Shown: piece by piece, positions 52,626-64,000 of the stretch
Layout: every line of letters starts with the position of its first letter
Numbering within the stretch: position 1 is the stretch's first letter
From: Meloidogyne chitwoodi
Taxonomy: Eukaryota; Nematoda; Chromadorea; Rhabditida; Meloidogynidae
Direction of reading: 5' to 3'
Assembly: GCA_015183035.1 (NCBI GenBank)
Contig: JACZZP010000008.1
Coordinates: 2,418,001 to 2,482,000 of the forward strand
DNA length: 64,000 nt
The notes under the pieces: generated by a model
The model's input: the letters and a program-made list of their open reading frames with translations, nothing else
The model's database searches: none
What the model was told of the DNA's origin: nothing
Program-made: the position numbers and the translations under genes

Positions 52626-52777
52626 TCATTGGGTGATAAAAAGTTAAACTCCAAACCTTTAAGCTTCAAAAGGTACAGAAGAGACCAGATACGGTCACAT
52701 CCAAGCATTAGAGCTTCAATAGGTGTAGAAGAGACAAGCCACTTCCACTTTGGAGGGTTTGGGCTTTGATTGGGTTA

Positions 52778-53315
52778 TTTTCGACGGCGCGTCGAAAATT
52801 GCCATTTTTTTTATATTTTCGACGGCGCGTCGAAAATTGCCATTTTTTTTTATATTTTCGACGGCGCGTCGAAAATTGCCATTTTTTTATATTTTCGACG
52901 GCGCGTCGAAAATTGCCATTTTTTTTTATATTTTCGACGGCGCGTCGAAAATTGCCATTTTTTTTTATATTTTCGACGGCGCGTCGAAAATTGCCATTTT
53001 TTTATATTTTCGACGGCGCGTCGAAAATTGCCATTTTTTTATATTTTCGACGGCGCGTCGAAAATTGCCATTTTTTTATATTTTCGACGGCGCGTCGAAA
53101 TTGCCATTTTTTTTTATATTTTCGACGGCGCGTCGAAAATTGCCATTTTTTTATATTTTCGACGGCGCGTCGAAAATTGCCATTTTTTTATATTTTCGAC
53201 GGCGCGTCGAAAATTGCCATTTTTTTTAATATTTTCGACCGCGCGTCGAAAATTGCCATTTTTTTATATTTTCGACGGCGCGTCGAAAATTGCCATTTTT
53301 TTATATTTTCGACGA
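52778..53315. repeat. 37-39 bp palindromic minisatellite, 14 copies
   Basis: Fourteen full units and one partial consist of TTTTCGACGGCGCGTCGAAA followed by TTGCCA, a run of 7-10 T and ATA. The core TCGACGGCGCGTCGA is a near-perfect inverted repeat with several CpG steps, in sharp contrast to the AT-rich surroundings. Units differ mainly in T-run length; one lacks an A and one has CCG for CGG. All three plus-strand frames are open through the array, which is a property of the repeat and not evidence of coding. Confidence 0.95.
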
Positions 53316-53838
53316 AGAGGATTTAATTCTGAATATAATGAAGCTAGAATCAAGATTTTTTGAAGAAAATTTAGTAAGTTATGAGACTTGTTCCGAAAAT
53401 TTCAGACTTGTTCCGAAAAAATAATTTGGGAGGTTCAACCGCGGCTAAATTATTATCGACAAAATATTTTTATATGATTCATATATCATTCGAAAGAGGA
53501 TTTAATTCTGAATATAATGAAGCTAGAATCAAGATTTTTTGAAGAAAATTCAGTAAGTTATGAGACTTGTTCCGAAAATTTCAGACTTGTTCCGAAAAAA
53601 TAATTTGGGAGGTTCAACCGCGGCTAAATTATTATCGACAAAATATTTTTATATGATTCATATATCATTCGAAAGAGGATTTAATTCTGAATATAATGAA
53701 GCTAGAATGAAGATTTTTTGAAGAAAATTTAGTAAGTTATGAGACTTGTTCCGAAAATTTCAGACTTGTTCCGAAAAAATAATTTGGGAGGTTCAACCGC
53801 GGCTAAATTATTATCGACAAAATATTTTTATATGATTA
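53316..53838. repeat. 179-bp satellite, left block (satB)
   Basis: About 2.9 monomers, with AGAGGATTTAATTCTGAAT at about 53317, 53496 and 53675 and an internal duplicate GACTTGTTCCGAAAA. Copies are almost identical. It shares CATATATCATTCGAAAGAG and the TTCTGAATATAAT stretch with the 179-bp family at 58331-60575. Confidence 0.92.
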
Positions 53839-53864
53839 GTAGTTAACCATACGGGTATGTCGTG

Positions 53865-54055
53865 GGTGTCGGGGGAAGAAAAAGAAGAGAGTAGTCGGTG
53901 TCGTGGGGGAGGGGGAAGAAAAAGAAGAGGGCAATTAGTGTCGTGGGTAGGAAAAAGAAGAAGAGAGTAGAGGGTGAAGGGGGAAGAAAAGGAAGAGGGC
54001 AATTGGTGTCGTGGGTAGGAAAAAAGAAGAAGAGAGTAGGAGGTGTTGAGGCCTT
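53865..54055. repeat. GA-rich purine minisatellite
   Basis: Irregular repeats of GAAGAAAAAGAAGAG, GTGTCGTGGG and GGGCAATT on the plus strand. It is purine-biased on one strand. The open frames on both strands are low-complexity. Confidence 0.75.
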
Positions 54056-54458
54056 TTCCTTTCTATTGAGCAGTCGTCTTTCCAAGTCTTCTATAGGCCT
54101 TGAAAAGTTTTGGAAAAATAAAATCCTTTTTGTTCATCCAAAGGATTATGCATTTCTTTCCATATTTGGTTGAGAATAGGATAAAATCTATTCTCATTGG
54201 TCATAAAAATAAAACTCTTTTTTTTCGCGCACTGAATAAATTATTGCGAAATAGAGGGAGAAAATATTTTATGAATAAATTATAAACCAATAAAATTTAT
54301 AGAGTGATAGAAGGAGAAAATATTTTACGAATAAATTATCTTTCGCGCATTGAAAAAATTATTGAGTAATAGAAGGAGAAAATATTATATATTTTTTAGT
54401 ATCACTTCTTCTCCCACTATAAAAACAGAGCGTTTTTACATTTTACATTCATTTTAAA
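54056..54458 (+). promoter_or_regulatory. Upstream region and TATA box of the virus-like cassette
   Basis: Three imperfect direct repeats of the form AGAAGGAGAAAATATT followed by TGAATAAATTAT-like sequence lie at about 54258, 54310 and 54370, two preceded by TCGCGCA(C/T)TGAA. A TATA box (TATAAAAA, 54418-54425) lies 34 bp before the first ATG at 54459, in a stretch that reads CTCCCACTATAAAAACAGAG. The spacing suits a start site about 10 bp before the ATG. Confidence 0.55.
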
Positions 54459-54941
54459 ATGAACAACAAAAATTTTCCTAAAATTTTACCCGAAATAGAT
54501 TTTAATATTACCTCTAGCGGAATCACTATTTCTAGTGTCCGACTTACAACTCCGCGTTTTATTCCTTATGATCAAGCCGGAAAATGTACCAAATGCAAGG
54601 CTACGGAAGTTGAATTGGACTTTGTAGTAGTAAAAGAGGGCGTGATTGTTTACTGCACACGCTTTTCAGGGAGTCGCTTTGTTCCATTTGATTCTTTCTA
54701 CGATTTACCCGGCCACTGTTTCTTTAAAGTGAAGAATAAGGGACGTGTCTTTAATGTTCCATACAATTCTACACTAAAGACCGAGATTCCTACCCCAATT
54801 ATTTCAACGTCAATAGAGAGTGCACCACCACCATCCGAAACTGTTCCACCTCAATCACATGATTCTCTTCCATCAAAAGATGGTTTGGATGAATTCTTCA
54901 AGGGCTTAGATGTTTCTTTAACAGGAATTCCAACAGATTGA
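54459..54941 (+). CDS. Virus-like cassette ORF 1, unknown function
   Basis: An intronless 160-codon frame from the ATG at 54459, directly behind a TATA box. The first 110 residues look globular with a CTKC pair, a later CxnC and a GHCFFKV strand. The last 50 are Pro/Ser/Thr-rich and end in a short acidic-hydrophobic segment (LDEFFKGLDVSLTG). I do not recognise the family. It abuts ORF 2 with almost no spacing, as in compact viral operon-like blocks. Confidence 0.75.
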   Translation: MNNKNFPKILPEIDFNITSSGITISSVRLTTPRFIPYDQAGKCTKCKATEVELDFVVVKEGVIVYCTRFSGSRFVPFDSFYDLPGHCFFKVKNKGRVFNVPYNSTLKTEIPTPIISTSIESAPPPSETVPPQSHDSLPSKDGLDEFFKGLDVSLTGIPTD

Positions 54942-54982
54942 AAGATATAAAAGAGTCAAATAATGTTATTTGTAAACTTGTT

Positions 54983-55630
54983 ATGGATTTAATTTCAGAT
55001 AAAGATTTAAAATTTAAACTTCCTTTTGGTATGATTATATCAGGTCCTAGTTCCAGTGGTAAAAGCACATTCATTTTAAATTTTATAGCAGATTCGAAAG
55101 AGCTAATTTTCCCTAAACCCAAATCAATACTTTATTGCTTTGGCGAAATGAATATACTTGTACCTATTTTACAGAAATCGGGAGTCAATGTGTATTCAGG
55201 TGTCCCTTCAGAAGAAGTTATTAAAAAATATCATAAACCATTGCTTTTAATTTTAGACGATTTACTACTTTCTATAAATGAAAAGCACTTATCTGAATTA
55301 TTCACTAAAAAATCCCACCATCAAAATTTTGCCATAATTTTTGTAACACAAAATTTATTCGAACCAAAAATTAAAGTTGCAAGACAAAATTCTCAATATA
55401 TTATACTGATGCGATCTCCGAATTCTATGCTTTCTGTACGCAATATTGGTGTACATTTATTTCCTCGCCAATTAGATTATTTTCTAGATGCGTATAAACA
55501 AGCTACGAGTCAGCCCTATGGTTATTTGGTCATCGATATGCATGCATCCTCAGATCCAGCTTTACGGCTAAGGACCAACATATTTAAGGAGGATGACGAA
55601 AAAATTATTTTTATTTCTAAAAATGGTTAA
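54983..55630 (+). CDS. Virus-like cassette ORF 2, P-loop packaging-type ATPase
   Basis: The frame is open from 54938; the first in-frame ATG is 54983, giving about 215 residues. Walker A is GPSSSGKST (about residue 20), Walker B is LLLILDDLL (about 93-101), and a sensor-like strand FAIIFVTQN follows. Small size, this spacing, and a C-terminal stretch with RQLDYFLDAY resemble the FtsK/HerA-type genome-packaging ATPases of Polinton/Maverick and adintovirus-like elements. It would power DNA loading into a capsid. Superfamily assignment is confident; the exact viral lineage is inference. No breaks are seen. Confidence 0.78.
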   Translation: MDLISDKDLKFKLPFGMIISGPSSSGKSTFILNFIADSKELIFPKPKSILYCFGEMNILVPILQKSGVNVYSGVPSEEVIKKYHKPLLLILDDLLLSINEKHLSELFTKKSHHQNFAIIFVTQNLFEPKIKVARQNSQYIILMRSPNSMLSVRNIGVHLFPRQLDYFLDAYKQATSQPYGYLVIDMHASSDPALRLRTNIFKEDDEKIIFISKNG

Positions 55631-55982
55631 TAAATTGATTCAAGAAAATATTGATTTTTTAAATTTACTATCAAAGACAAAATCTGAAAGAAAACGTAAA
55701 AAACTTTTGAGACTTTCAAATACTAATCAGCTTTTAGCAATAGTTGAAATATGTTTGAATATTGTAAAAGGGAGATTTCATCTCACTAATAGACAGAGGA
55801 AAAGATTAATACCATATGCAGAGTTTGTTCGACATATGAGTAGAGTAAGAAGCGAGAGAGGAGCTCGTCATATTGTTAATCAAAAAGGCGGAGGGATTGG
55901 GGTTTTTGCAGCTCTTTTAACACCTGTGCTGATGGAAATGGCTAAGAGTATATATAAGAATGATAGTTCCGAAACTCAATAA
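55624..55982 (+). CDS. Virus-like cassette ORF 3, small basic protein
   Basis: The ATG at 55624 overlaps the end of ORF 2 by 7 nt and gives 118 residues. The protein is basic and helical (SKTKSERKRKKLLRL, IVEICLNIVKGRFHLT, RQRKRLIPYAEF) and ends with a Gly-rich to hydrophobic segment (NQKGGGIGVFAALLTPVLME). That pattern recurs in small proteins that accompany packaging ATPases in invertebrate Polinton-like elements, where a core/membrane-active role like adenoviral mu or protein VI has been suggested. The role here is inference. Confidence 0.7.
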
Positions 55983-55988
55983 TTAGAT

Positions 55989-56393
55989 ATGGCAAATAAA
56001 TTTATTTTAGTTCCAGAGGAGATATACAAAGGACTTACGACTCATGATACAGGTGAACCAAATATAGATTTTATTCGTACAACTCTTGAGAAAACTAAAA
56101 GAAAAAAAGAAACTCCAAGTGAAAAAAATATAAAGTACAATCAGGAATTGAGAAGATATTTAAAAATGCGTATTGAGCAACAAAATCGACCTGTTAGAGT
56201 AGAAATGGTAGCTAGTTCTAAAGGTATCACAGCTAGGCCTATTTCAGGAATAGATGAAGAGAATGACGATAATATGTTTATAGATGATAGTTTTACATCG
56301 ACATATCTAAATCCTTCCGCTCAAGATATTAAACCTGCTATATTTCAAGATATTAAATCTTCATCTAGACTTAAACTAAAATTTTGGCCCTAA
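55989..56393 (+). CDS. Virus-like cassette ORF 4, small conserved-type protein
   Basis: The ATG at 55989 follows the ORF 3 stop by 6 nt and opens 134 codons. The N-terminus FILVPEEIYKGL, then TGEPNIDFIRTTLEKTKRKK, and KYNQELRRYLKMR resemble another small protein found next to packaging ATPases in invertebrate virus-like elements; function is unknown. The C-terminus KLKFWP and its stop codon are encoded by the first copy of the 169-bp hairpin repeat (CTAAAATTTTGGCCCTAA), so the gene runs directly into the array. Confidence 0.7.
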   Translation: MANKFILVPEEIYKGLTTHDTGEPNIDFIRTTLEKTKRKKETPSEKNIKYNQELRRYLKMRIEQQNRPVRVEMVASSKGITARPISGIDEENDDNMFIDDSFTSTYLNPSAQDIKPAIFQDIKSSSRLKLKFWP

Positions 56394-57318
56394 AAAAATA
56401 AAAAAAAAATAATAATTTTTTTTTTCAAGATTATTCTTGAATTTTTTTTTTTAATAAAAAAAAGGTTGGATATCTCATATCCAATAACCTTAAAAAAAAA
56501 TTATTTAAAAAAAATAAAATTGAAAAAAGTTATGGGCCAAAATATTAAAATTTTGGCCCTAAAAAAATAAAAAAAAAATAATAATTTTTTTTTTCAAGAT
56601 TATTCTTGAATTTTTTTTTTTAATAAAAAAAAGGTTGGATATCTCATATCCAATAACCTTAAAAAAAAATTATTCAAAAAAAATAAAATTGAAAAAAGTT
56701 ATGGGCCAAAATATTAAAATTTTGGCCCTAAAAAAATAAAAAAAAAATAATAATTTTTTTTTTTCAAGATTATTCTTGAATTTTTTTTTTAATAAAAAAA
56801 AGGTTGGATATCTCATATCCAATAACCTTAAAAAAAAATTATTTAAAAAAAATAAAATTGAAAAAAGTTATGGGCCAAAATATTAAAATTTTGGCCCTAA
56901 AAAAATAAAAAAAAAATAATAATTTTTTTTTTCAAGATTATTCTTGAATTTTTTTTTTTAATAAAAAAAAGGTTGGATATCTCATATCCAATAACCTTAA
57001 AAAAAAATTATTTAAAAAAAATAAAATTGAAAAAAGTTATGGGCCAAAATATTAAAATTTTGGCCCTAAAAAAATAAAAAAAAAATAATAATTTTTTTTT
57101 TCAAGATTATTCTTGAATTTTTTTTTTTAATAAAAAAAAGGTTGGATATCTCATATCCAATAACCTTAAAAAAAAATTATTTAAAAAAAATAAAATTGAA
57201 AAAAGTTATGGGCCAAAATATTAAAATTTTGGCCCTAAAAAAATAAAAAAAAAATAATAATTTTTTTTTTCAAGATTATTCTTGAATTTTTTTTTTTAAT
57301 AAAAAAAAGGTTGGATAT
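56372..57318. repeat. Hairpin array 1: 169-bp units, 5.5 copies
   Basis: GGCCC recurs at 56386, 56555, 56724, 56893, 57062 and 57231, an exact 169-bp period. Each unit contains three inverted repeats in order: GGGCCAAAAT paired with ATTTTGGCCC; TCAAG paired with CTTGA around ATTATT; and GGTTGGATAT paired with ATATCCAATAACC. They are separated by A- and T-runs. The array is cut inside the third hairpin, where satA begins. Confidence 0.95.
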
Positions 57319-58330
57319 CATCGAGCTCTTTCGAATGATACCAAATTCAGCAAATTTCCAACGATGGAAATTTTTTTATCGAACTTTGAATTATTCCTTC
57401 AACCCCAAATTTTTAAAATTTTCAAAAAATTTTTTCTCAAAAACTAGTCGATAGATTTTTAAATTTCATAGCTCATTCGATTCAGCTTATCGAGCTCTTT
57501 CGAATGATACCAAATTCAGCAAATTTCCAACGATGGAAATTTTTTTATCGAACTTTGAATTATTCCTTCAACCCCAAATTTTTAAAATTTTCAAAAAATT
57601 TTTTCTCAAAAACTAGTCGATAGATTTTTAAATTTCATAGCTCATTCGATTCAGCTTATCGAGCTCTTTCGAATGATACTAAATTCAGCAAATTTCCAAC
57701 GATGGAAATTTTTTTATCGAACTTTGAATTATTCCTTCAACCCCAAATTTTTAAAATTTTCAAAAAATTTTTTCTCAAAAACTAGTCTATAGATTTTTAA
57801 ATTTCATAGCTCATTCGATTCAGCTTATCGAGCTCTTTCGAATGATACCAAATTCAGCAAATTTCCAACGATGGAAATTTTTTTATCGAACTTTGAATTA
57901 TTCCTTCAACCCCAAATTTTTAAAATTTTCAAAAATTTTTTCTCAAAACTAGTCGATAGATTTTTAAATTTCATAGCTCATTCGATTCAGCTTATTGAGC
58001 TCTTTCGAATGATACCAAATTCAGCAAATTTCCAACGATGGAAATTTTTTTATCGAACTTTAAATTATTCCTTCAACTCCAAATTTTTAAAATTTTCAAA
58101 AATTTTTTTCTCAAAAACTAGTCGATAGATTTTTAAATTTCATAGCTTATTCGATTCAGCTTATTGAGCTCTTTCGAATGATACCAAATTCAGCAAATTT
58201 CCAACGATGGAAATTTTTTTATCGAACTTTGAATTATTCCTTCAACCCCAAATTTTTAAAATTTTCAAAAATTTTTTCTCAAAACTAGTCGATAGATTTT
58301 TAAATTTCATAGCTTATTCGATTCAGCTTA
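57319..58330. repeat. 170-bp satellite, right block (satA), about six copies
   Basis: Units of about 169 bp in the same orientation as the 51731-52183 block, with CGATAGATTTTTAAATTTCA in place of CTGTAGATTTTTAAATTTCA. The copies are very similar to each other, and single-base T-run differences are common. Confidence 0.94.
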
Positions 58331-60575
58331 TGAATTCTGAATATAATTAAGTAAGAATAAATCTTTTGAACAAAATACAGATGAGAGTAATGGACTTATG
58401 TAATTGTAGGTCAGTTATTTAAAAAAAAATTTTGGAATTTTCAAAAAGATCTAAAAGTTTTTAAAAAAATTATTACTTTATGATTCATATATCATTCGAA
58501 AGAGCTTTGAAAGCTGAATATAAATAAGTAAGATTAAACTCTTTTGAACAAATTACAGATGAGAGTAATGGACTTATGAAAATGTAGGTCAGTTATTAAA
58601 AAAAAAATTTTGGAATTTTCAAAAAGATCTAAAAGTTTTTAAAAAAATTATTACTTTATGATTCATATATCATTCGAAAGAGCTTTGAATTCTGAATATA
58701 AATAAGTAAGATTAAACTCTTTTGAACAAATTACAGATGAGAGTAATGGACTTATGAAATTGTAGGTCAGTTATTAAAAAAAAAATTTTGGAATTTTCAA
58801 AAAGATCTAAAAGTTTTTAAAAAAATTATTACTTTATGATTTATATATCATTCGAAAGAGCTTTGAAAGCTGAATATAAATAAGTAAGATTAAACTCTTT
58901 TGAACAAATTACAGATGAGAGTAATGGACTTATGAAATTGTAGGTCAGTTATTAAAAAAAAAATTTTGGAATTTTCAAAAGATCTAAAAGTTTTTAAAAA
59001 AATTATTACTTTATGATTCATATATCATTCGAAAGAGCTTTGAATTCTGAATATAATTAAGTAAGAATAAACTCTTTTGAACAAAATACAGATGAGAGTA
59101 ATGGACTTATGAAATTGTAGGTCAGTTATTTAAAAAAAAAATTTTGGAATTTTCAAAAAGATCTAAAAGTTTTTAAAAAATTATTACTTTATGATTCATA
59201 TATCATTCGAAAGAGCTTTGAAAGCTGAATATAAATAAGTAAGATTAAACTCTTTTGAACAAAATACAGATGAGAGTAATGTACTTATGAAATTGTAGGT
59301 CAGTTATTTAAAAAAAAAAAATTTTGGAATATTCAAAAAGATCTAAAAGTTTTTAAAAAAATTATTACTTTATGATTCATATATCATTCGAAAGAGCTTT
59401 GAAAGCTGAATATAAATAAGTAAGATTAAACTCTTTTGAACAAAATACAGATGAGAGTAATGGACTTATGAAATTGTAGGTCAGTTATTTAAAAAAAAAA
59501 AATTTTGGAATATTCAAAAAGATCTAAAAGTTCTTAAAAAAATTATTACTTTATGATTCATATATCATTCGAAAGAGCTTTGAAAGCTGAATATAAATAA
59601 GTAAGATTAAACTCTTTTGAACAAATTACAGATGAGAGTAATGTACTTATGAAATTGTAGGTCAGTTATTTAAAAAAAAAAAATTTTGGAATATTCAAAA
59701 AGATCTAAAAGTTTTTAAAAAAATTATTACTTTATGATTCATATATCATTCGAAAGAGCTTTGAATTCTGAATATAATTAAGTAAGAATAAACTCTTTTG
59801 AACAAAATACAGATGAGAGTAATGGACTTATGAAATTGTAGGTCAGTTATTTAAAAAAAAAAAATTTTGGAATATTCAAAAAGATCTAAAAGTTTTTAAA
59901 AAAATTATTACTTTATGATTCATATATCATTCGAAAGAGCTTTGAATTCTGAATATAATTAAGTAAGAATAAACTCTTTTGAACAAAATACAGATGAGAG
60001 TAATGGACTTATGAAATTGTAGGTCAGTTATTAAAAAAAAAATTTTGGAATTTTCAAAAAAGATCTAAAAGTTTTAAAAAAATTATTACTTTATGATTCA
60101 TATATCATTCGAAAGAGCTTGAAATTCTGAATATAAATAAGTAAGAATAAACTCTTTTGAACAAAATACAGATGAGAGTAATGGACTTATGTAATTGTAG
60201 GTCAGTTATTTAAAAAAAAAATTTTGAAATTTTCAAAAAGATCTAAAAGTTTTTAAAAAAATTATTACTTTATGATTCATATATCATTCGAAAGAGCTTT
60301 GAAATTCTGAATATAATTAAGTAAGAATAAACTCTTTTGAACAAAATACAGATGAGAGTAATGGACTTATGAAATTGTAGGTCAGTTATTTAAAAAAAAA
60401 ATTTTGGAATTTTCAAAAAGATCTAAAAGTTTTTAAAAAAAATTATTACTTTATGATTCATATATCATTCGAAAGAGCTTTGAAAGCTGAATATAAATAA
60501 GTAAGAATTAAACTCTTTTGAACAAAATACATATGAGAGTAATGGACCTATGTAATTGTAGGTCAGTTATTTTAA
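58331..60575. repeat. 179-bp satellite, right block (satC), about 12.5 copies
   Basis: Units of about 179 bp begin near CATATATCATTCGAAAGAGCT and contain ACAGATGAGAGTAATGGACT and AAAAGATCTAAAAGTTTTTA. Two variants are interspersed, differing at TTTGAAAGCTGAATATAAAT versus TTTGAATTCTGAATATAATT. Copies are highly similar, which suggests recent amplification or homogenisation. Confidence 0.94.
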
Positions 60576-62628
60576 AAAAAATTGGGCTAAAATTTTAATA
60601 TTTTGGCCCATAACTTTTTTCATTTTTATTTTTTTTTAATAATTTTTTTTTCAGAATACACGACTTGTCAAGTCGTGATTTTTTAAAAAAAAAAATCAAG
60701 AATAAACTTGATAAAAAAAAATTATTTATTTATTTTTTTTTAAAAAAAATTGGGCTAAAATTTTAATATTTTGGCCCATAACTTTTTTCATTTTTATTTT
60801 TTTTTAATAATTTTTTTTTCAGAATACACGACTTGTCAAGTCGTGATTTTTTAAAAAAAAAAATCAAGAATAAACTTGATAAAAAAAAATTATTTATTTA
60901 TTTTTTTTTAAAAAAAATTGGGCTAAAATTTTAATATTTTGGCCCATAACTTTTTTCATTTTTATTTTTTTTTAATAATTTTTTTTTCAGAATACACGAC
61001 TTGTCAAGTCGTGATTTTTTAAAAAAAAAAATCAAGAATAAACTTGATAAAAAAAATTATTTATTTATTTTTTTTTAAAAAAAATTGGGCTAAAATTTTA
61101 ATATTTTGGCCCATAACTTTTTTCATTTTTATTTTTTTTTAATAATTTTTTTTTCAGAATACACGACTTGTCAAGTCGTGATTTTTTAAAAAAAAAAATC
61201 AAGAATAAACTTGATAAAAAAAAATTATTTATTTATTTTTTTTTAAAAAAAATTGGGCTAAAATTTTAATATTTTGGCCCATAACTTTTTTCATTTTTAT
61301 TTTTTTTTAATAATTTTTTTTTCAGAATACACGACTTGTCAAGTCGTGATTTTTTAAAAAAAAAAATCAAGAATAAACTTGATAAAAAAAAATTATTTAT
61401 TTATTTTTTTTTAAAAAAAATTGGGCTAAAATTTTAATATTTTGGCCCATAACTTTTTTCATTTTTATTTTTTTTTAATAATTTTTTTTTCAGAATACAC
61501 GACTTGTCAAGTCGTGATTTTTTAAAAAAAAAAAATCAAGAATAAACTTGATAAAAAAAAATTATTTATTTATTTTTTTTTAAAAAAAATTGGGCTAAAA
61601 TTTTAATATTTTGGCCCATAACTTTTTTCATTTTTATTTTTTTTTAATAATTTTTTTTTCAGAATACACGACTTGTCAAGTCGTGATTTTTTAAAAAAAA
61701 AAATCAAGAATAAACTTGATAAAAAAAAATTATTTATTTATTTTTTTTTAAAAAAAATTGGGCTAAAATTTTAATATTTTGGCCCATAACTTTTTTCATT
61801 TTTATTTTTTTTTAATAATTTTTTTTTCAGAATACACGACTTGTCAAGTCGTGATTTTTTAAAAAAAAAAATCAAGAATAAACTTGATAAAAAAAAATTA
61901 TTTATTTATTTTTTTTTAAAAAAAATTGGGCTAAAATTTTAATATTTTGGCCCATAACTTTTTTCATTTTTATTTTTTTTAATAATTTTTTTTTCAGAAT
62001 ACACGACTTGTCAAGTCGTGATTTTTAAAAAAAAAAATCAAGAATAAACTTGATAAAAAAAAATTATTTATTTATTTTTTTTTAAAAAAAATTGGGCTAA
62101 AATTTTAATATTTTGGCCCATAACTTTTTTCATTTTTATTTTTTTTTAATAATTTTTTTTTCAGAATACACGACTTGTCAAGTCGTGATTTTTTAAAAAA
62201 AAAAAATCAAGAATAAACTTGATAAAAAAAATTATTTATTTATTTTTTTTTAAAAAAAATTGGGCTAAAATTTTAATATTTTGGCCCATAACTTTTTTCA
62301 TTTTTATTTTTTTTTAATAATTTTTTTTTCAGAATACACGACTTGTCAAGTCGTGATTTTTTAAAAAAAAAAATCAAGAATAAACTTGATAAAAAAAAAT
62401 TATTTATTTATTTTTTTTTAAAAAAAATTGGGCTAAAATTTTAATATTTTGGCCCATAACTTTTTTCATTTTTATTTTTTTTTAATAATTTTTTTTTCAG
62501 AATACACGACTTGTCAAGTCGTGATTTTTTAAAAAAAAAAATCATGAATAAACTTGATAAAAAAAAATTATTTATTTATTTTTTTTTAAAAAAAATTGGG
62601 CTAAAATTTTAATATTTTGGCCCATAAC
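60576..62628. repeat. Hairpin array 2: 168-bp units, 12 copies, inverted relative to array 1
   Basis: GGGCT recurs at 60583, 60752, 60920, 61087, 61255, 61423, 61592, 61760, 61928, 62094, 62262, 62430 and 62598. Read on the minus strand each unit has GGGCCAAAAT paired with ATTTTAGCCC, then ATCAAG paired with CTTGAT, then CACGACTTG paired with CAAGTCGTG, and it returns through GAAAAAAGTTATGGGCC, which is the same order and the same joining sequence as array 1. The third stem differs completely in sequence from that of array 1. Confidence 0.95.
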
Positions 62629-63007
62629 TTGTCGTAAAATATACAACAAAAATTTATAAAAAATAATCCTTTTCTTTTACAAATATTTATTCTTTTAAAT
62701 AAAACAATTTAAAGATAGAGAAGCTTGTCCAAGAGAAAAAATATAACATCTTAAATATAAAAAAAAAGAAGGCGTATTTAAAAAGTACATAAATATAATC
62801 ACCAAATATTTTTCAGAAAAAAGGGCGTATTTAACAATTAAAGTAGAGAAAAAATAAAAATACCAAAAAAAGAATTTAAAATCATCTTTTTTACAAAAAG
62901 ATGATTAATGGAAAGAAAAATAAAAAATTAAAAATGTCGCATTTAGCGACACTCCAGAATTGACAGAAAAAAATTTTAAGATAATTCAGAACAACAAAAA
63001 AATATGT
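62629..63007. other. AT-rich 3' flank with two further hairpins
   Basis: Two exact inverted repeats lie here: ATCATCTTTTT facing AAAAAGATGAT (about 62881-62906) and TGTCGC facing GCGACA around ATTTA (about 62935-62951). GGCGTATTTAA occurs twice (about 62771 and 62824). No gene is seen. Confidence 0.6.
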
Positions 63008-63778
63008 TTAATCTTTCTTTGAAGATGATGATTGTAAATGTATGTCGTTGATATTATCCCATTCTCCCGCATGTTTTATCATCTGCTGTAGGCTCTCTCT
63101 AATCAACTCGATTTTTGTCCAATAGTCAGCTCGATCAACTACCGTTTTGCAGCCCGAATGTGGAATGAGAGCGAGACAATCAAAAGCTAAAGAACGAATG
63201 CGTTTAACACAGCTTGCTTCTTTAGAATGAGAGCCTCGAATGTCATTTGATTGATTATTTTTAACTTCACTCATTAATTTTTCTCTCTTCATCTTTAAAA
63301 TTTTCATGGCTTTTTCTTCAGTCTGATTGGGTATTATCATTTTTACTGGTGAGCTGTAAAATACTCCATCTGAAATTAAAGCTTTCTTTCTCGGAATTGG
63401 CGGTAGTGGCAAATTTTCATTTAGATCGTCACGTGCACGCTTAACTAAAATTGAGTCAACAATTCTTTTTCCTATCTCCTTTTCTCTTCCAAATACTTTT
63501 CTTAGTTCATTTTCTTTTTCAATTTTAAGAGAATTTTCAATTTTATTCGCTTTGATTGGTTCTTTACTGGATACAATTTCTGAAACTTTAAAAGTTTGTT
63601 TAATTATTTTTCTTTTATTTATTTTACTTAGTAGCTCTTTGTCCTCAGGAGTGGCACTGCGTTCTATCTCGGATTTTTCACTTTCGCTTTCAGTCCCACT
63701 TTCAAAAATTGCCGGGTCTGTCATTTTAATCTTCTTTCCTCCTCTAATTTCTTTTTGAGGTGCTTTTTTAGGTGGCAT
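63008..63778 (-). CDS. Unidentified Lys/Glu-rich protein next to hairpin array 2
   Basis: The frame is open from 63973, but the upstream part is AT-biased Ile/Phe/Leu noise; the ATG at 63778 (MPPKKAPQKEIRGGKK) is the likely start, giving 256 residues. The N-terminal half is basic/acidic and disordered (ESGTESESEKSE). The C-terminal part is more globular (RIRSLAFDCLALIPHSGCK, DYWTKIELIRESLQQMIKHA) and the tail is Ser/Lys. It is intronless, like the virus-like ORFs, and convergent with them across the satellite block. I recognise no family; it could be a viral DNA-associated protein or a retroelement gag-like fragment. Confidence 0.55.
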   Translation of the reverse strand: MPPKKAPQKEIRGGKKIKMTDPAIFESGTESESEKSEIERSATPEDKELLSKINKRKIIKQTFKVSEIVSSKEPIKANKIENSLKIEKENELRKVFGREKEIGKRIVDSILVKRARDDLNENLPLPPIPRKKALISDGVFYSSPVKMIIPNQTEEKAMKILKMKREKLMSEVKNNQSNDIRGSHSKEASCVKRIRSLAFDCLALIPHSGCKTVVDRADYWTKIELIRESLQQMIKHAGEWDNINDIHLQSSSSKKD

Positions 63779-64000
63779 TTTCCAAAAAAATTTTTCTAAA
63801 ATATGAGAAAATGTTAATATTAATATCAATGTGAAACATAAGTATAGTATCATTATGTGGATGAAATTAAAATATTTAAAATTAATGAATTCTTTATAAA
63901 ATATTATAAGATTTAAAGATTTAAAATGAAATTTCTTTATAATGTTCTCATATTTATACAAAATATTCCCCAAAAATAACGGGCCAAGGACAAGATGAGT
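63779..64000. other. AT-rich upstream region of the 63-kb ORF
   Basis: Very AT-rich; it probably holds the promoter of the minus-strand ORF. No motif is certain. The element appears to continue past the right edge. Confidence 0.4.

Follow-up and report, generated by a model that had tools for sequence, protein, structure and literature searches.

A palindromic stem-loop satellite near contig ends of Meloidogyne chitwoodi, with a Maverick fragment and a BEL/Pao retrotransposon joined to its arrays

Nematodes of the genus Meloidogyne, M. chitwoodi included, are reported to lack telomerase (PMC10844300). The complex telomeric repeats described in M. incognita, M. javanica and M. arenaria are G-rich and oriented, and such repeats lie mostly at one chromosome end; the same source states the protection of the second end of most Clade I Meloidogyne chromosomes as open, and suggests that several repeats are involved, each of them confined to few chromosomes (PMC10844300). 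In M. hapla, likewise reported without telomerase, a 16-mer forms tandem arrays at contig ends (PMC12643312). For M. chitwoodi and M. fallax, satellites with a CENP-B-box-like motif have been reported (PMC3694981). Here we describe a satellite of M. chitwoodi whose unit holds three inverted repeats. Two arrays of it lie in a 64,000-nucleotide stretch of contig JACZZP010000008.1 (the window, C29:2418001-2482000 of an assembly of 47.48 Mb in 30 contigs), which ends 9.5 kb short of the right end of the contig (2491486). An earlier note on this DNA had tentatively assigned the arrays to a virus-like gene cassette. We conclude with high confidence that they are host satellite near contig ends and not part of a virus, and that a Maverick and a BEL/Pao element became joined to them by insertion or breakage.

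Like the repeats of M. incognita, M. javanica and M. arenaria and the 16-mer of M. hapla, the stem-loop arrays are tandem and lie at contig ends, in a genus reported without telomerase, but they are AT-rich and unoriented where the repeats of the first three species are G-rich and oriented (PMC10844300, PMC12643312). With the satellites and higher-order repeats of M. chitwoodi and M. fallax they share AT-rich tandem arrays and abrupt switches from one satellite to another; in contrast to these, they are without the core of the shared CENP-B-box-like motif (PMC3694981). This 10-base core, TTTCCAACGA, is present in neighbouring 169- and 170-bp satellites and in neither stem-loop array. Scored over the whole box, the two stem-loop subfamilies of the window (T1 and T2, below) reach 10/17 and 9/17 against 12 in the 169- and 170-bp satellites; a neighbouring 181-bp satellite also scores 12, from an unrelated stretch, so that the whole-box score alone is unspecific. 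The terms "palindrom-" and "inverted" are absent from the main text of PMC3694981. Among the main texts examined on Meloidogyne satellites and telomeres, "palindrom-" occurs only in PMC12643312, for a fold-back of the 16-mer array, and a description elsewhere is possible.

Junctions of the mobile elements with the arrays

Satellite arrays were called with Tandem Repeats Finder (TRF) and genes from open reading frames (ORFs), with the following features at the two junctions:

53838..53859, plus strand: left terminus of a Maverick, beginning AGTAGTTAACC, the same 22-mer as in the inverted pairs that end full copies (e.g. C1:718435-733928)
54459..54941, plus strand: Maverick ORF1, 160 aa (ORF call)
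54938..55630, plus strand: Maverick ORF2, packaging-type ATPase, first ATG at 54983 (Pfam)
55623..55982, plus strand: Maverick ORF3, 119 aa (ORF call; nothing above Pfam cut-off)
55989..56393, plus strand: Maverick ORF4, truncated at 56376, later codons being array sequence (ORF call; comparison of copies)
56377..57319, plus strand: array 1, stem-loop satellite of subfamily T1, 169 bp x 5.6, 99% matches (TRF; units)
60570..62629, minus strand: array 2, stem-loop satellite of subfamily T2, 168 bp x 12.3, 99% matches (TRF, which calls it to 62630; units)
62630..62951, minus strand: long terminal repeat (LTR) of a BEL/Pao element (TGTCG...CGACA, 322 bp); the second LTR, at C29:2490233-2490553, is 99.7% identical
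63008..64000, minus strand: C-terminal end of the BEL/Pao envelope region, continuing past the window

The cassette consists of the leftmost 2.5 kb of a Maverick/Polinton, of which full copies measure about 15.4 kb, cut inside ORF4 where array 1 starts. Window positions 53836-56376 are 99.8% identical to the copy on contig C1; this homology ends at 56376, and array 1 begins with the next nucleotide. The copies on C1 (99.8%), C6 (92%) and C26 (94%) read on in ORF4 past this point. The earlier note, which had the four-ORF block end in the array, was right that array 1 follows ORF4 directly, but ORF4 is truncated at 56376 and its last codons are array sequence. With at most one mismatch, the terminal 22-mer occurs 11 times genome-wide, as three inverted pairs 15.3-15.5 kb apart (C1, C12, C26), two pairs at shorter distance (1.5 and 0.5 kb) and one unpaired copy in the window, where only the left terminus is present. 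All three long pairs are flanked by 6-bp target duplications (AACGCC, CTTACC and CCACTG). A PolB gene (PF03175) lies at C1:721039-722586, inside the termini of the C1 copy. The C6 copy carries an integrase-like stretch downstream of ORF4 (rve, E 2.9e-5; its 24.7 bits fall short of the Pfam cut-off, 32.6), to which DNA of the C1 copy is similar by eye. Features of a Maverick/Polinton seen in other copies are ends that start with AG, terminal inverted repeats, a 6-bp target duplication, PolB and the ATPase, beside the sub-threshold integrase-like stretch; the window copy differs in being a left fragment with one terminus.

ORF2 matches Pfam Adeno_IVa2 with 23.6 bits (cut-off 21) and Pox_A32 with 21.9 bits, slightly below the cut-off of 22.8. 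ORF1 gave no Pfam match better than E 0.18 and no PHROG match. By eye, ORF3 may resemble an adenovirus-type core protein pX. The ATPase family has 64 matches in the genome, or 59 loci once fragments of the same gene are merged by hand; with PolB matches thinned likewise, 39 of these loci lie within 15 kb of a PolB match and 20 do not. The named organisms among the 120 best relatives of the ATPase are Meloidogyne, one Globodera and one Heterodera, beside many metagenome entries. A search of IMG/VR for such relatives returned three pattern matches, none of which was confirmed.

At the other junction, the minus-strand ORF at 63 kb had been seen to face array 2. It is no gene of its own and forms the end of a longer frame of a BEL/Pao LTR retrotransposon that is inserted in array 2 and unrelated to the cassette. 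A 5-bp TAACT target duplication (62625-62629 on the window side) flanks the element inside the array, which picks up again at C29:2490554. Window positions 62630-64000 match copies on C5, C25 and C11 at 99.7-99.9%, starting exactly at 62630, and the flanks differ. The element contains Peptidase_A17 (E 2.7e-51), RVT_1 (2.6e-10) and Integrase_H2C2 (1.8e-9) domains, with rve (9.9e-7) under the cut-off; the part of the frame adjoining the window carries Phlebovirus_G1 and G2, and the Pao peptidase and reverse transcriptase lie further upstream. An interruption leaves the C29 copy with an open frame of 1396 aa, versus 2993-2997 aa in the copies on C5, C25 and C11. Belpaoviruses such as Atlas virus of hookworm combine a BEL/Pao pol with a phlebovirus-like envelope (PMC9094657). 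The present element resembles Atlas virus in this combination and in its single long frame, and differs in its host and in the interruption of the C29 frame (PMC9094657).

Architecture and variation of the satellite

TRF confirms two arrays with units of 169 and 168 bp on opposite strands, as had been noted. Both units contain, in the same order on these strands, the inverted repeats IR1 (GGGCCAAAATATTAAAATTTT[G/A]GCCC), IR2 (TCAAG...CTTGA) and IR3, and both have the linker GAAAAAAGTTATGGGCC. On the strand named in the earlier note, IR1 of array 2 has one mismatched pair. IR3 is GGTTGGATATCTCATATCCAATAACC in array 1 and CACGACTTGACAAGTCGTG in array 2, so that the third stem is indeed different and still pairs, and this property extends beyond the window. 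We examined 15 array sources, 13 of which gave complete monomers (none came from C9L and C15L); the addition of further pieces brought the total to 114 monomers, which were sorted into five subfamilies:

T1 (array 1, C4L, C24, C25L): third stem TTGGATAT/ATATCCAA
T2 (array 2, C1L, C1R, C12L, C21, C22R, C27L, C29R): third stem CACGACTTG/CAAGTCGTG
T3 (C1R, C15L, C21): third stem CGGACTT/AAGTCCG
T4 (C7R, C25L, C21): third stem TTGGACA/TGTCCAA
T5 (C22R): third stem TTGGAAAA/TTTTCCAA

At least five subfamilies make up the satellite, and the palindrome of the third stem is particular to each. By eye, the pair that follows TTGGA is T-A in T1, C-G in T4 and A-T in T5, and the outer pair of IR2 is T-A in T1, A-T in T2 and an unpaired T-T in T4. 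This habit of swapping stem letters while keeping the pairing is a noteworthy feature of the satellite. The centre of the T2 third stem is A, T or AT (T2 units of array 2, C12L, C1R and C29R); the alternation of A and T is what inversion of the arms of a palindrome would give.

Folding of single units bore out the stem-loop description, since one unit each of T1-T4, on both strands, beat all 200 dinucleotide shuffles in eight of eight tests (z -4.0 to -6.6). When the letters of the third-stem slot were shuffled 20,000 times, an equally long perfect stem arose in 35, 3, 106, 4 and 114 cases for T1 to T5, the T4 slot being a minor variant of C25L and C7R. Rates of variation were taken from 73 distinct monomers of T1-T4, with two T1 variants of changed stem ends counted and T5 (4 monomers) kept outside. 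Variant cells number 28 of 3668 in stem arms (7.6 per 1000), 71 of 2484 in non-homopolymer linkers (28.6 per 1000) and 38 of 5022 in A/T runs (7.6 per 1000). In the third-stem arms 9 cells of 1384 are variant and in the third-stem loops 10 of 171, nine of these ten at one T2 site. Arms are about four-fold less variable than non-homopolymer linkers (Fisher 3e-10, a value that overstates the difference because cells share descent and linkers are possibly misaligned).

The arrays have received other elements as well. At C24:11826-34405 a different Maverick with termini AGTAGTAAGAGCGACGGG lies inside a T1 array, flanked by a 6-bp CATAAC duplication. Another element, of about 1.2 kb with inverted ends CAGTGATCGG and an 8-bp TTGTCAAG duplication, splits a T2 third stem at about C21:31360-32510. 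Together with the insertion in the window, these cases show that transposons land in stem-loop arrays. As side observations, the C24 Maverick and the BEL/Pao element of the window hit overlapping sites (CATAAC and TAACT) beside IR1, and the element on C21 looks hAT-like by eye.

Position at contig ends and competing explanations

Stem-loop arrays lie at 12 of the 60 contig ends, and in the 18 contigs above 2 Mb they are terminal at 9 of 36 ends; array counts from similarity searches are lower bounds. Since M. graminicola has 18 chromosomes (PMC10630426), many of these 18 contigs may be near whole chromosomes. An exact scan with the T2 core gave 94 matches and a scan with a long T1 pattern 70 (C24, C25 and the window), and every one of them lies within 18 kb of a contig end or in a contig below 50 kb. 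A T4 scan gave 126 matches, which among the 100 listed fall on C7, C21 and C25, and a generic core 309, which among the 100 listed fall on C1 and C4. Across the 12 array ends, seven arrays point one way and five the other, the GC content of the 1.5-kb ends is 0.16-0.25, and CCCC or GGGG runs occur at only three (C9L, C12L, C29R), in stretches shared with other sequence. Neither a fixed orientation nor a G-rich 3' strand, the hallmarks of telomeric repeats, was thus found at these 12 ends, and a telomeric repeat in the usual sense is unsupported, the arrays being without strandedness. These hallmarks appear in another repeat. A 179-bp-type satellite (match at least 92%, two partial) has one outward orientation at each of its 13 contig ends (10 left, 3 right). 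As a telomere would, the left ones among them show C runs and the right ones G runs. The composite satellite with this unit, which also occurs at window positions 53315-53837, is a candidate for the telomeric repeat of the species; homogeneous 169-bp arrays, for example at C3R, break the orientation rule.

The earlier note had proposed that the arrays are amplified transcription terminators or replication and packaging signals of the virus-like element. Array 1 does stand directly after ORF4, the units fold well, and contigs C24 and C22 hold both arrays and Mavericks or Maverick genes. We nevertheless consider this proposal extremely improbable. ORF4 is cut by the array and reads on in the three copies examined, so that the palindrome 3' of the element's genes across copies, which marks viral palindromic terminators, is not seen. 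In 30 of the 64 ATPase matches, examined with 1.5-kb flanks, the unit occurred at the window's own locus and at none of the 29 others; arrays reach 12 of 60 contig ends, and units elsewhere do lack virus-like genes beside them, the very finding that had been named as speaking against the proposal. Furthermore, three full copies are bounded by inverted termini of their own and by target duplications, the facing ORF comes from another kind of element, and an exact search of IMG/VR contigs with the unit core gave no match. That transcribed arrays are selected for an RNA fold is very unlikely as well. In its favour, of eight one-sided transitions in stem arms, judged by eye, two would leave a G-U pair on the GTTATGGGCC strand and six on its complement, while a ninth restores a pair; but six of eight is no significant bias, and Rfam gave four matches at chance level, each inside the adjoining 169-bp satellite and none in the arrays.

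An alternative telomere, in which the fold protects the ends, would account for the terminal arrays at 9 of 36 ends of large contigs and would suit the absence of telomerase, the open second end and the several repeats suggested in PMC10844300. At the opposite ends of C4 and C7 there is an oriented satellite (179-bp-type match), and at those of C25 and, less clearly, C12 there are G runs of the oriented-satellite group. We still judge it unlikely, given the unfixed orientation, the low GC content, a C27L array that lies outside the other satellite and a window array split by a retrotransposon. A more specific version is quite unlikely: that the unoriented palindromic satellite caps the ends without an oriented G-run satellite, its hairpins or cruciforms shielding or priming the end while the letters are free as long as the stem pairs. 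A further possibility, to which we give slightly less than an even chance, is that paired changes arise without selection, through hairpin-templated repair of imperfect palindromes. It would explain why third stems pair in five subfamilies despite different letters, and why the T2 centre is A or T; it leaves the persistence of all three palindromes in the same order unexplained, and one-sided variants in all four subfamilies counted imply that such repair is incomplete.

The arrays most likely represent subterminal DNA of chromosomes, and the window is an example of the patchwork that arises where transposons land in satellite arrays. A chromosome-end role is possible in a genus reported without telomerase, and any function would more likely lie in chromosome-end heterochromatin than in gene expression. 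In our reading, a Maverick inserted in the 179-bp satellite nearby, and its right part, about 12.9 kb judging from full copies, was lost later at the point of its junction with array 1. The BEL/Pao element inserted in array 2, as other elements did in other arrays. The arrays may spread and turn over through recombination between ends, and their palindromes may extrude as hairpins or cruciforms. Hairpin-templated repair, selection for a foldable unit, or both, could then keep the third stem paired while its letters change between subfamilies; that the palindromes persist at the DNA level, through structure-dependent repair or selection, is our best reading.

Several observations weigh against these conclusions. 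At 10 of the 29 other ATPase loci there is one weak match, 29-48 bp long, to the AT-rich unit, and Mavericks recur near arrays (in the window, on C24 and, within one 46-kb contig, on C22), although the target duplication on C24 marks a plain insertion. Long repeats are places where contigs break, so that the position at ends may be due in part to assembly, and interior copies may exist, as 100 of the 309 generic and 100 of the 126 T4 matches were listed. The question raised earlier, whether substitutions break the stems as often as they hit other parts of the unit, has a divided answer: arms vary less than linkers, whose counts are perhaps inflated by misalignment beside A/T runs, and they are no steadier than the A/T runs themselves (p 1.0). 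No compensatory change was found within subfamilies T1-T4, and all 19 variable arm sites are one-sided.

A repeat family that is terminal at 9 of 36 ends of contigs above 2 Mb, and whose third stem pairs in five subfamilies although its letters differ, is a concrete candidate for some second ends. The window also serves as a warning that, where ends are rich in satellite, virus-like genes may lie beside structured repeats by chance.

Other Maverick derivatives and neighbouring repeats

The genome search brought up several rearranged Mavericks. At C12:2244190-2259602 lies a 15.4-kb derivative with two mirrored PolB genes and a near-perfect palindrome in the central 1 kb that was read (490 of 496 pairs), which resembles a snap-back product of protein-primed replication. 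The element at C26:1776977-1792344 has mirrored PolB genes and termini around a centre that is not palindromic (151 of 500). Two more mirrored PolB pairs, at C6:111283-118355 and C6:133480-140546 (constant coordinate sums), are possibly further inverted-duplicate derivatives. Contigs C16 (153,282 bp) and C17 (153,258 bp) share their end repeats, agree in where ATPase and PolB matches lie, and appear to be two versions of a single region.

The remaining satellites near the arrays, as called by TRF, are:

52776..53314: 37-bp satellite, 14 copies
53315..53837, plus strand: 179-bp satellite array, with a sharp junction to the Maverick terminus at 53837/53838
57320..58331, plus strand: 169-bp satellite with the CENP-B box core (TRF; core positions)
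58325..60581, plus strand: 181-bp satellite array

The 179-bp array is the apparent target of the Maverick insertion, and the 169-bp satellite is presumably of the M. chitwoodi/M. fallax type. Array 1 stops mid-unit at its junction with the latter; arrays 1 and 2 are not adjacent, being separated by the 169- and 181-bp satellites. A common history of the junction between the 181-bp satellite and array 2 with that on C24 is ruled out, as the C24 junction differs. Finally, the 37-bp satellite holds a GC-rich palindrome, TTTTCGAC...GTCGAAAA, and is a further palindromic repeat in the same region.

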